A stretch of DNA of 13,785 nucleotides from a bacterium (GTDB taxonomy: Bacteria; AUK180), in the NCBI GenBank assembly GCA_023144005.1, contig JAGLGN010000009.1:1-13785 (forward strand). Reading direction: 5' to 3'. A program made the position numbers and the translations under genes. A model generated the notes under the pieces. The model saw only the letters and a program-made list of their open reading frames with translations. It made no database searches and was not told the origin of the DNA. Shown here one piece after another: positions 5,488 through 11,764 of the stretch (position 1 is the first letter of the stretch; every line of letters starts with the position of its first letter).

Positions 5488-6294
5488 TTATTCAATGGTG
5501 GGCTTGTAAAAGATCGCCATCCTGTTCCACTTGTCCTCAAGTTCTGCCGCCGGCCATTTCTCTGTACCCGAAGCGGGATCTATGACAATGAAAACGCCGT
5601 CTTGAAATCTTTCGATCACAACGGCATGATCAATTAATGCGTTAAGACGAAAGGTCGTTATTACAGGAATCCTGATATTCTTCAACTCTTCTATGGTCGT
5701 AAAGACCAGAACAGGAGTGAGTGTGGGATTATTCATCTTCTTTGACAATGCATAGAGAATACCCGCATCACCAACGCCCCGGCCGGGAATTGTCTTCGAG
5801 ATACTAGCCATCTCGCCTTCATGTGCATCAATGCCGTAATATGAAAGCAGATTTACCATTGAAGCAGCGCCGCATGTATAATGCGTGGTTTGAATACACA
5901 CATTGTCAATATCACACCTATTGTCAAATTCATAGGCCTTGAATGGAATAAAAAAGGAGAGGTTCATCAGAAAATAATAGGTAAACAATACTCCGGCCAG
6001 GATGTGAAGCAAACTACGGGTGAATTTTCTTTTCATCGGAAATGATGCAAGCAGAAAGAAGGAGACGGAAAAGGGAGCGACCCAAAAAGTACCAAAGAAA
6101 AGGTAATACTTAAAGGTGTTCACGCTCCAAATATAATACGAGCGAACGGATAAAGACAGAACAAAGAGAATTATAAAGGCCAGTAAAGGAAGCAAGAACC
6201 ATTCATGCCGTCTGATACGAGAGCCGAAACGGAGGCTTATCAAGGCGGTTGATATAAGCAGAAATAAATTTATGACAGGCAGAAGCAATTCCAT
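5488..6294 (-). CDS. Membrane-anchored C39-type cysteine peptidase
   Basis: The 268-residue product has four predicted membrane segments (about 3-21, 32-51, 63-85 and 95-118) followed by a papain-like C39 domain. The peptidase hallmarks are all visible: Q135 (oxyanion hole) six residues before the nucleophile C141 in YTCGAAS, then H223 in DHAVV and D239 in DPASG. C39 enzymes classically trim double-glycine leaders as the N-terminal domain of bacteriocin ABC exporters. This one has no ABC half, and no exporter or leader-bearing peptide gene is in the window, so it resembles stand-alone C39-like (YvpB-type) proteins. Which side of the membrane the catalytic domain faces is not determined. The first ATG is 5 nt after a TATAAT box and lacks a Shine-Dalgarno sequence, suggesting a leaderless mRNA. 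The substrate is unknown. Confidence 0.85.
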   Translation of the reverse strand: MELLLPVINLFLLISTALISLRFGSRIRRHEWFLLPLLAFIILFVLSLSVRSYYIWSVNTFKYYLFFGTFWVAPFSVSFFLLASFPMKRKFTRSLLHILAGVLFTYYFLMNLSFFIPFKAYEFDNRCDIDNVCIQTTHYTCGAASMVNLLSYYGIDAHEGEMASISKTIPGRGVGDAGILYALSKKMNNPTLTPVLVFTTIEELKNIRIPVITTFRLNALIDHAVVIERFQDGVFIVIDPASGTEKWPAAELEDKWNRMAIFYKPTIE

Positions 6295-6386: not shown

Positions 6387-8045
6387 ATGAGGGAAACAGA
6401 AAACAAAAGACTTGACGATAGAGAGCCCATTGAGATCACTCAAGGTATCTGGTGGCTGGGTTTCGCAGATTATGAAGCGGGATTTTCAAATAACCCGTAT
6501 CTGATAGTTGATGGGGAAGAAGGCGTTCTCTTTGACCCGGGGCCGGAGCACCCTTTCTTCAGGGAAATGCTGATCCAGAAGATCAGGAAGGTGATGAAGC
6601 CGGAGAAGATCAAATATGTGGTCGTCCACCATCAGGATCCGAATTTATGGGGATCTATCCCCCATTTGGAGCGCATACTTCACCCCGATCTGGTGATCAT
6701 AACCCACCCCGGCACCTTCCCTTTTATTTCGTATTACGGCATCAGAAAGAGGATATTGCCTGTAGGCGACAATGACACTCTGGAATTAGCATCCGGAAGG
6801 AAATTGCGATTCATTCATCTTCCCTATATGCACTTCGCCGGAAATATGGCGGCATTGGACGAGAAGAGCCAAAGTCTGTTCTCCTCAGACATATTCGGCG
6901 TTTTTGACCATAGCTGGTCTCTATACGCGGACGAATCCTATCTTGAGAAGACCCGATACTTCATCGAACATTATGTGGGAAGCAAGAAAGCGATTAAGTA
7001 CGCATACAAGAGGATCGCCGGTTTAAACCCAAAGCGCATCATACCTCAGCACGGAAGCATTATAGAGGAGAATCTCGAAGGATTCTTAAATGTACTCCGA
7101 GATGCTGAGCCGGGAAAAATGGTTGAGGAATTGGACAACAAACCCTCGACAGCTCAAGAAAGTCAGTTGACCGAAATAGGGCTGGAGAAACTGAAAGCGG
7201 TAACAGGCCAGGATCTTAAGGCATCCGATTTTTCTCAATTGTTGGAACACCTGCTGAACGAAGATGCTATCAATGTCATTTCCGTAATGGAATCCATCTA
7301 TAGAGCGGCTCACGAAATGGGAGTAAGTAATCCATTGAATTTCGGGCGGAATCACCGCTGGGGAACAATAGACCGTTCACAGGCTTTTTATATGTACAAT
7401 GCGATAAACAAAAGACTTATCAGCAAGCAATTTGACCTGTATCACGGAGAATCTTCCAAAATGAATAGTATCTTAGAGCAGGGACTTCAATCCATAACTG
7501 AAGACGCTACTGTAATGTTCATCAATATCCGCGGATTTACCGAATGGTCGGGCGGAAGGTCGCCATCAGAGATCGTTCACACATTGAATACTCATTTTGA
7601 ATTAGCGGCAAGGGTCATTCATCAGCACAATGGGCAGATCAATAAGATCATGGAGGACATGATCCTCGCATATTTTTCAAAGGACGATTGTCGAAACTGG
7701 CTTGAAGCTGCAAGAGAGATCCATCAGGCGATCGAAGAAAACTTCATGCTGCCGGTAGGTATAGGTTGTTCTTACGGCAGAATTATTTTGGGAGATTTCG
7801 GTATAGAGTCGAGATTGAACTATACCGTTATCGGGGACACTGTAAATATGGCATCACGGCATTGTTCTTTCGCGGACAAGGGAGAAACATCCATCTCCGA
7901 TCAACTCTTTGATACATTGACTAAAGAAGAAAAAGAGCTTATAGAGCGATTGCCGGGATTTCATCAATTCACTACAAGGGTCAAACCCAATGATACGGAA
8001 ATAAAGGGATTTAAATTCAAATTCAATAAACTTGAGGAGGAATAA
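6387..8045 (+). CDS. ODP-type di-iron domain fused to class III nucleotidyl cyclase
   Basis: The 552-residue product has no membrane segment and should be cytoplasmic. Residues about 15-230 form a metallo-beta-lactamase fold of the flavodiiron/ODP type; candidate metal ligands are H82 and D84 in HHQDP, H149 in PYMHFAG, D168 in FSSDIFG and H222 in PQHGS, with the classical HxExDH motif altered. Residues about 230-365 are a helical linker. Residues 370-500 are a class III adenylate/guanylate cyclase domain with RGFT, K420, D424, YTVIG and NMASR (T480, N487, R491 kept; a Lys/Thr pair usually indicates ATP). The first metal-binding Asp is Asn (N380, codon AAT), so catalysis may be reduced. An iron- or oxygen-responsive cyclase is inferred from the fusion. 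The gene shares a divergent promoter region with the C39 peptidase and is directly followed by a membrane protein. Confidence 0.88.
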   Translation: MRETENKRLDDREPIEITQGIWWLGFADYEAGFSNNPYLIVDGEEGVLFDPGPEHPFFREMLIQKIRKVMKPEKIKYVVVHHQDPNLWGSIPHLERILHPDLVIITHPGTFPFISYYGIRKRILPVGDNDTLELASGRKLRFIHLPYMHFAGNMAALDEKSQSLFSSDIFGVFDHSWSLYADESYLEKTRYFIEHYVGSKKAIKYAYKRIAGLNPKRIIPQHGSIIEENLEGFLNVLRDAEPGKMVEELDNKPSTAQESQLTEIGLEKLKAVTGQDLKASDFSQLLEHLLNEDAINVISVMESIYRAAHEMGVSNPLNFGRNHRWGTIDRSQAFYMYNAINKRLISKQFDLYHGESSKMNSILEQGLQSITEDATVMFINIRGFTEWSGGRSPSEIVHTLNTHFELAARVIHQHNGQINKIMEDMILAYFSKDDCRNWLEAAREIHQAIEENFMLPVGIGCSYGRIILGDFGIESRLNYTVIGDTVNMASRHCSFADKGETSISDQLFDTLTKEEKELIERLPGFHQFTTRVKPNDTEIKGFKFKFNKLEEE

Positions 8046-8627
8046 ATGGAAAAGTATCTGTTTATCAAAGCTACACTGGAAGCATTTGCCAAAGAAGATT
8101 TTTTCAAAAAAATTACTGCGCTTGTGATCCGCATTCTCTGCGGCATTGTTGTGATCTTCTCATTAGTATCCTGGATCAAATTGTGGAAAGTTGTTTTTGA
8201 TATGAAAGGGTCGGATGTGGTTGGCGGTATTTTCTTCCAATTATTATTTATCGTTGGTGTTTACATGATCGTACACATTCTGCTCATCAGGGCAAAAGAG
8301 GTTTCCGGAATGCGGAAGGAAGAATTCTATGTATTGCCGATCATTTCAACCGTCTTAAAGATGCTTGGCGAAGTTCACGCGGCATTATTTGTATTCACGG
8401 GTTGGGCCGGCGGTATTTTCATATGGATCGCAGGGCAAGAGGCCAAAAGCGTTATCAATACTCTACCCCTCATAAAATCAGCGGGCAGAGTCTCGTCGGA
8501 CTTCATGGGTGGCTTGACATTTATCATTAAATTGACGCTCATGGGTTTTCTCGCCATTGTCTTAATGTATGCTGCCGCTGAAGTAGTAAAAATATTTCAT
8601 AGAGTGGAGAAAAATACGAAGAAATAA
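8046..8627 (+). CDS. Four-helix integral membrane protein, function unknown
   Basis: The 193-residue product has four hydrophobic segments at about 24-45, 59-82, 108-130 and 157-183, with Lys/Arg-rich stretches at 82-91 and at the C-terminus suggesting cytoplasmic faces. I recognise no family. The ATG begins on the base after the cyclase stop codon, and a strong GAGGAGG ribosome binding site lies at 8034-8040 inside the cyclase gene, so the two are almost certainly co-transcribed and co-translated. That makes a partner or effector relation with the ODP-cyclase protein the best contextual guess. The second half is glycine-rich around its third helix (GWAGGIFIWIAGQ). The 3' end touches a heptamer repeat array. 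Confidence 0.75.
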   Translation: MEKYLFIKATLEAFAKEDFFKKITALVIRILCGIVVIFSLVSWIKLWKVVFDMKGSDVVGGIFFQLLFIVGVYMIVHILLIRAKEVSGMRKEEFYVLPIISTVLKMLGEVHAALFVFTGWAGGIFIWIAGQEAKSVINTLPLIKSAGRVSSDFMGGLTFIIKLTLMGFLAIVLMYAAAEVVKIFHRVEKNTKK

Positions 8628-9766: not shown

Positions 9767-11764
9767 TTGGATAATTCACATTCTTTCCGACCATTTCTCA
9801 GCGATCTTCTGGAGTTATTTAAAGAAGTAACTCATTTGCAGGACAGGGATCATGTCCTTCAAAAGATCGGAAATTTCACCTACAAGTTCTTGGAATGTGA
9901 GAACATTGTGATCTGGTTATGGGATGATAGGGAAGAACTTCTGAAACCCTTCAAATATTGGGGGCTTACTCCCGACGAGATGGAGGGGCATACTTATGAA
10001 AAGGGAGAGGGGCTGCCGGGAACAGTTTTCAAAAAAGGAATACCTCTCTTTGAAAAATCTCTCAAGGACAATGAGAATTATGTTTTCAAGAACACAGCAG
10101 AAGACAGGATACGCAATTTATTAATGGTCCCCATCTTCTTTAAAGAAGAAGTGATCGGCGTATTGGATGTTTCCAATAAAACAGAGGGAACTTTTTCAAG
10201 CGACGATTTCAATAAATTGCTTCTTATTTCATTTATTTTATCAATAATTCTGAATATTTCGTCAAACCAGGATGAAGCCACAAAGAACTATCAGTACTAT
10301 TCTTCACTGGTGGATATCTTCGGCGCATTCAACTTTGCCAATAGCGATGAGGAATTCTTCTCCAATTTAAAGAATATTCTGGCAAATATTTTCCGGACCG
10401 AAGTTGTCCTCGTGCTCCGCAAGAACGGCGTCATATATTTTCCTCCGGCAATTGAAGACATTCCGGAAAATCTGCCTGTATTCTCTCAAGAATCAGATAT
10501 CGTCTATGAACTTGGAGCCGCCATTGTATTTATTCAAATACTGAATTATGATATCTATTTCATATTGAAGAGTTCGGAAACGTTCAGAGACCTTATTAAC
10601 GGGCCTGAAAAATCAATACTGATACGAGAGATATTGAAGAGGGTTGTGAGTCAGTATTTTGATCAAAGAAAGTTATCCACTAAGAATTACCAATTCGACC
10701 TTCTTTACCGTATCGGACAGCAATCCCTTGATACAAATATCTCAACCTCCGATCTACTTAAATCCTTTGCGATCGAGATCTATGAGACCTACAAGTTATA
10801 TTCATTGGAAATACTGGCAATAGACGGAAGTAAATATACGAATATAGTTACCGAAGGCCTTTACAAGCGGGATATTATCCTTGTCCCTGTAGAAGCCTCC
10901 ATCATCTCCCTGCTGAATACTCAAGATGTTTTCATTTTGAATGCCGAGAACTCAAATCTTTATGGAGATTTCGTCTTTAACCCTTCAACCGAGGACCATA
11001 CCGTCTCTCTATTTTCTACCGCTTTAAAAGATGAGAACGGGATACACTTCATTTTAATCTTCAGATGGGATGAGATATTCTCTCCGGAAATGAATTTTTT
11101 CAATTTCCTCGACCTTCTTAAGAAGGAAATACTTGCAAAGGATTATTCTGTCCAACTCATGGATAAACTGAACAGAACTACCAATGAGACCATCAAGCTT
11201 CTGATGACCGTGCTATCCTATAAAGATCCTGAGATCATCAGCCACTCTAAGAGAGTTGCCGAGGTCGCGGTCTGCCTTACAGAGCTTTTTTCATTGAATA
11301 TTAATTCCATGGACATGAGATTAGCGGCATATCTGCATGACCTCGGGAAGGTCGGTATAGAAGATTCTCTTTTAAAGAGTTCCAAGGAATTCACCAGCGA
11401 TGAATTTGATTCTGTTAAAAGGCATTCGGAGATCGGCTATGACCTGATAAAGAATTATGATTATCCTATGGATCTGAAAAAATCCATTCTGCTTCACCAT
11501 GAGAAATGGAACGGCGAGGGTTACCCTAAGGGCCTGAGCGGCGAGGAGATTCCCGTTTTTGTGAGAATAATGACGATCTCCGACTCCATTGATGCGATTC
11601 TTTCCGAGAGGCCGTATAAGATCAAAAAGAGCTTTTCTCAATTAAAAAAGGAATTACGGAATGAAAGTGGAAAATCATTTGACCCCACTTTGACTAATAT
11701 ACTGATAAATAATTGGGAAGTTTTCTTAGATAAGGTGAGTCATATCTATGAGAAAAGTCCTTAG
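9767..11764 (+). CDS. GAF-domain HD-GYP protein, likely c-di-GMP phosphodiesterase
   Basis: The 665-residue product begins with a clear GAF sensor domain (about 5-165, GEGLPGTVFKKG and VIGVLDVSNK). A 165-470 region follows that reads as one or two degenerate GAF-like modules, then an HD-GYP domain (about 475-650). H493, the HD pair H524-D525 (YLHDLGKVG) and HHEKWNGEGYPKGL at 577-590 are intact, so hydrolysis of cyclic di-GMP (or a related dinucleotide) is expected. No membrane helix or signal peptide is seen, indicating a cytoplasmic sensor. The start is TTG, six bases after the HEAT gene stop, with only a weak upstream purine run. No ATG exists before the GAF fold, so TTG with translational coupling is the best choice. 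It overlaps the next gene by 17 bp. The GAF ligand cannot be inferred. Confidence 0.9.
   Translation: MDNSHSFRPFLSDLLELFKEVTHLQDRDHVLQKIGNFTYKFLECENIVIWLWDDREELLKPFKYWGLTPDEMEGHTYEKGEGLPGTVFKKGIPLFEKSLKDNENYVFKNTAEDRIRNLLMVPIFFKEEVIGVLDVSNKTEGTFSSDDFNKLLLISFILSIILNISSNQDEATKNYQYYSSLVDIFGAFNFANSDEEFFSNLKNILANIFRTEVVLVLRKNGVIYFPPAIEDIPENLPVFSQESDIVYELGAAIVFIQILNYDIYFILKSSETFRDLINGPEKSILIREILKRVVSQYFDQRKLSTKNYQFDLLYRIGQQSLDTNISTSDLLKSFAIEIYETYKLYSLEILAIDGSKYTNIVTEGLYKRDIILVPVEASIISLLNTQDVFILNAENSNLYGDFVFNPSTEDHTVSLFSTALKDENGIHFILIFRWDEIFSPEMNFFNFLDLLKKEILAKDYSVQLMDKLNRTTNETIKLLMTVLSYKDPEIISHSKRVAEVAVCLTELFSLNINSMDMRLAAYLHDLGKVGIEDSLLKSSKEFTSDEFDSVKRHSEIGYDLIKNYDYPMDLKKSILLHHEKWNGEGYPKGLSGEEIPVFVRIMTISDSIDAILSERPYKIKKSFSQLKKELRNESGKSFDPTLTNILINNWEVFLDKVSHIYEKSP

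Follow-up and report, generated by a model that had tools for sequence, protein, structure and literature searches.

The window, a stretch of 13,785 nucleotides from a bacterial contig, carries on its forward strand an intact open reading frame (6387..8045, ATG start) for a protein of 552 amino acids in which two domains are joined by a linker. The first half of the protein (residues ~10-245; 6414..7121, +) is a metallo-beta-lactamase domain of the ODP type, matched by Pfam PF19583 (ODP) at residues 34-223 with an E-value of 3.4e-49 and 167.8 bits against a cut-off of 27.2. The second domain (residues ~367-549; 7485..8033, +) is a class III cyclase, matched by PF00211 (Guanylate_cyc) at residues 371-518 with an E-value of 1.7e-14 and 54.2 bits against a cut-off of 21.9. 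Between the two lies a helical linker (residues ~246-366; 7122..7484, +), delimited by alignment and by the secondary structure of an AlphaFold model, which predicts several helices there; its end helix, INKRLISKQ, presumably resembles the helices that precede many bacterial cyclases. No transmembrane-like segment was found in the 552 residues (best 19-residue hydropathy 1.16). The original prediction of an ODP-like metallo-beta-lactamase fold and a class III cyclase in one polypeptide is thus borne out by both profile matches and by the ODPs being the closest structures.

Directly after the stop codon of the cyclase gene follows a gene for a membrane protein of 193 amino acids (8046..8627, +), recognized by its hydrophobic segments, which has no match in Pfam, NCBIfam or PHROG and is likely to be on the same transcript as the ODP-cyclase. 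It occupies the same place in the congener (L103) and is absent from there in the other orthologues. Further downstream lie a HEAT-repeat gene and, on the same strand (9767-11764), a GAF and HD-GYP-type protein with the motif HHEKWNGEGYP, probably a c-di-GMP phosphodiesterase. The divergent neighbor of the ODP-cyclase gene encodes a membrane-anchored C39-type peptidase (5488-6294, -). As the neighborhoods of the orthologues contain no evident common gene outside the genus of the window, operon context does not settle the function of the protein.

To which branch of the metallo-beta-lactamase superfamily the first half belongs is clear from profile, sequence and structure matches alike. In a search of PDB sequences the ODP chains 6qrq (E 1.5e-21) and 6qnm (1.1e-20) came out on top, followed by cyclases and flavodiiron proteins. 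The AlphaFold model reaches intermediate confidence (pLDDT 73, pTM 0.55; built from 6 sequences, without metals or a dimer), and in it residues 8-246 align with T. maritima ODP (6qwo) over 232 residues with a Z-score of 23.6 and 2.5 A, the other ODP entries coming next. The structure overlay proposed originally therefore ranks ODPs first and flavodiiron proteins lower (Z about 21), and the domain groups with ODP, the chemotaxis sensor of O2 and Fe, more closely than with the flavodiiron enzymes. The latter share the metallo-beta-lactamase fold with the window protein, but they carry a flavodoxin domain and a full HxExDH motif; the window protein has HQDPNL and no flavodoxin match, and on these two grounds it was ruled out as a flavodiiron enzyme.

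The five residues originally named as the metal site (H82, D84, H149, D168 and H222) do sit at those positions in the protein. Their conservation among homologues was anticipated, and in a ligand table of 55 ODP rows (54 of them complete) and four flavodiiron rows all five are kept in 51 of the 54 complete ODP relatives. The window protein also carries the Gln of PQHG (Q221-H222; 7047..7052, +), a signature of nearly all ODPs; the corresponding residues of flavodiiron proteins are SHG or THG. In the T. maritima ODP, this Gln reportedly replaces the missing His as a ligand (PMC7785958). The first ligand motif, H82-Q-D84-P-N86 (6630..6644, +), had been flagged as an oddity, as HHQDPN stands in place of HxExDH. 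In almost every ODP the sequence here is HQDPD and then Leu, Ile or Val (HYDPD in two), in contrast to the HxExDH of flavodiiron proteins. With HQDPD and PQHG near-universal in the family, the motif is mainly the ordinary ODP signature: ODPs in general have Asp for Glu and lack the second His, in whose place the window protein has L87. What stands of the oddity is the change of Asp to Asn at position 86, which is specific to the genus, being present in the window protein and its congener (L018), whereas the remaining 53 ODP rows all have Asp. In the alignment N86 corresponds to the Asp of the flavodiiron HxExD, a ligand of the second iron.

The cyclase domain keeps K420, D424, T480, N487 and R491, which we take to be the adenylyl, class IIIb-type set; the base-selecting pair (K420 and T480) and the transition-state pair (N487 and R491) are both complete. 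Its fold aligns with those of Rv1900c, Cya2 and the class IIIb adenylyl cyclase CyaC of Spirulina (Z about 21), which share these five residues. Unlike them, however, the window protein has an ODP as its sensor and departs from the canonical active site in two places, both missed originally. Of the catalytic pair of metal aspartates, one is replaced by Asn (D380N; codon AAT at 7524..7526, +), and Glu replaces Gly directly before the other (G423E, next to D424). The first metal Asp is missing in just 3 of 31 distinct cyclase rows, namely the window protein, its congener and the degenerate L008. The congener has both changes, encoded by the same AAT and GAG, and because this second genome agrees codon for codon at N86, N380 and E423, sequencing errors at these positions were ruled out. 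Moreover, the window lineage departs from the rest at 12 otherwise invariant cyclase positions, compared with 1 to 6 in each of five other ODP-cyclases. In class III catalysis the metal aspartates are described as indispensable (PMC4886424). With D424 present and Asn at 380, the domain is a class III member by fold and descent and not a canonical active one.

Despite these substitutions the gene has not been left to drift. Between the window gene and that of the congener, a single genome pair that is 96% identical and offers few changes, dN/dS was 0.114 for the ODP domain, 0.272 for the linker and 0.150 for the cyclase, and amino-acid changes were fewer than expected under neutrality in each part (p about 2e-4, 8e-3 and 5e-5, respectively). 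The values of 0.11-0.15 show that both domains are still under selection and that the protein is retained.

A family search for the same architecture had been suggested, and it turned up full-length ODP-linker-cyclase genes in ten further genomes, at 33-96% identity to the window protein, which makes the fusion neither a chance product nor an assembly chimera. The holders are the congener RS_12_30, Abyssobacteria SURF_17 and a relative (G030), a Spirochaetales MAG and four more genomes of its class, a Thermoflexales MAG and a Victivallales MAG, in which the gene is split between contigs. ODP-cyclases were present in 4 of 386 genomes sampled across the domain (that of the window included), in 5 of 394 genomes sampled from the class of the Spirochaetales MAG, in 1 of 396 from the Thermoflexales class and in 1 of 197 from the Victivallales class. 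They are thus rare and patchy, across scattered phyla. In a tree of ODP domains all eleven ODP-cyclases fall into one group with a support of 100, so that a single origin of the fusion, followed by spread or by widespread loss, is most likely.

Members of this group differ in how much of the canonical machinery they keep. All nine ODP-cyclases outside the genus of the window have both cyclase aspartates, with Asp where the window protein has N380. Six of them (L010, L019, L020, L021, L031 and L064) retain every canonical residue of both domains, L031 being a sequence without its N-terminus. The remaining three (L065-L067), from the class of the Spirochaetales MAG, have lost H82, D84, H149 and D168 and kept the catalytic residues of the cyclase, and L066 and L067 have a common frameshift in the ODP part. 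Metal sensing would therefore not be universal in the family. Among the eleven sequences, D86N, D380N and G423E appear confined to the genus of the window, represented by two genomes that are 96% identical.

The reading that we favor, with somewhat better than even confidence, is that ODP-cyclases are di-iron-sensing adenylyl cyclases and that the copy in the window is derived, retained although its homodimer is predicted to have little or no activity. The protein would be a soluble one-protein sensor in which a helical linker connects a dinuclear-metal ODP domain to a cyclase domain of the class IIIb adenylyl type. In the family at large, binding of Fe(II) or O2 at the ODP site would shift the packing of the subunits, and the linker would pass this change on to the cyclase dimer and so alter cAMP output. 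In the window copy, D380N, together with G423E beside the other Asp, would leave the homodimer weak or inactive, and D86N would alter the metal site. Such a copy may have been kept as a sensing or regulatory member that acts through protein contacts or in partnership with another cyclase, and not as the main source of cAMP. The five cNMP-binding proteins in the genome were counted in favor of the sensor-cyclase explanation. The coupling of oxygen or iron status to a cyclic nucleotide, as originally proposed, is thereby supported for the family, given that ODPs are the closest structures and that their metal residues are kept so widely. It is doubtful for the window protein itself, with D380N, G423E and D86N at positions that are all canonical in six relatives.

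One other explanation, an unlikely one, is that the window protein is a working adenylyl cyclase regulated by O2 or Fe, in which N380 supports one metal and the remaining catalytic residues are enough for slow but useful synthesis of cAMP. D424, K420, T480, N487 and R491 are all in place, the fold is predicted to be intact, purifying selection acts on the cyclase domain and the genome encodes proteins to bind the product; yet the metal aspartates are the residues held to be indispensable (PMC4886424), G423E adjoins the one that is left and many other fixed positions of the domain have changed. Because the half that serves base binding and the transition state is complete (K420, T480, N487 and R491), a C2-like role in a heterodimer is also possible. 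By analogy with mammalian C2, which pairs with C1, the window protein, having lost one Asp of the metal-donating half-site, may be a natural half-cyclase that pairs with another cyclase of the cell and places its partner under iron or O2 control. We regard this as distinctly improbable.

Slightly more doubtful again is that the gene is decaying, with the functions of both sensor and enzyme lost in the genus and the reading frame not yet broken. Key positions have changed in both domains, and two related genes elsewhere, L066 and L067, have a frameshift in common. However, the low dN/dS, the significant deficit of amino-acid changes and a reading frame that is intact in both genomes speak against decay. 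Finally, membership in the metallo-beta-lactamase/flavodiiron superfamily could mean that the N-terminal domain is an enzyme (an O2/NO reductase or a hydrolase) with the cyclase as a passenger. This is very improbable, as there is no flavodoxin domain, the ligands are those of an ODP and not HxExDH, a canonical flavodiiron protein (L004) is encoded separately in the genome, and the extended relatives of the ODP domain are mostly fused to GGDEF domains.

The best match in sequence and fold to residues 8-246 is ODP itself (T. denticola TDE2498 and the T. maritima protein; 6qnm, 6qrq, 6qwo and 6r9n), with HQDP and PQHG in common. The T. denticola ODP, which binds iron and O2, regulates a cytoplasmic chemoreceptor (PMC7666581, PMC6978683). 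These ODPs are separate proteins acting on a chemoreceptor, whereas in the window an ODP with Asn instead of Asp at position 86 forms part of a cyclase polypeptide. Among ODPs with C-terminal extensions, a GGDEF domain was found in 27 of 32 scanned and a response-regulator domain in 14 of 32. ODP-GGDEF and ODP-GGDEF-REC proteins likewise join a sensor ODP to an enzyme that makes a nucleotide messenger, but their output is a diguanylate cyclase, of a family unrelated to PF00211, and they lie on separate branches of the ODP tree. An analogue in working is Bhr-DGC of Vibrio cholerae, in which a di-iron hemerythrin domain controls a GGDEF enzyme (PMC9388753), although neither its sensor fold nor its cyclase is related to those of the window protein. 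Fusions of ODPs to signal-transduction domains have already been described, with no cyclase named among them (TREND, PMC7319448), and no fusion of an adenylate cyclase to an ODP or a flavodiiron domain was found in a search of open-licence papers. In the favored reading, the cyclase would be a new output for a known sensor.

The presence of monophyletic ODP-cyclases in several phyla suggests that a chemotaxis sensor of O2 and iron also drives cAMP-type signaling, which would need neither heme nor a membrane receptor. With canonical, metal-less and D380N members, the family also offers a comparison set of one architecture, in which the direction and the chemistry of coupling between ODP and effector can be tested within a single polypeptide.

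Some further observations concern the wider surroundings of ODPs. The genome of the window encodes five MCP-type proteins and several other cyclase-like proteins. The class of the Spirochaetales MAG is rich in ODP-GGDEF fusions, many of which carry a response-regulator domain at the C-terminus (examples include L022, L071, L076, L079, L085-L090 and L092). Two stand-alone ODP genes (L041 and L049) adjoin genes for sensor-kinase-like and response-regulator-like proteins, and these neighbors suggest that ODPs also provide input to two-component systems.
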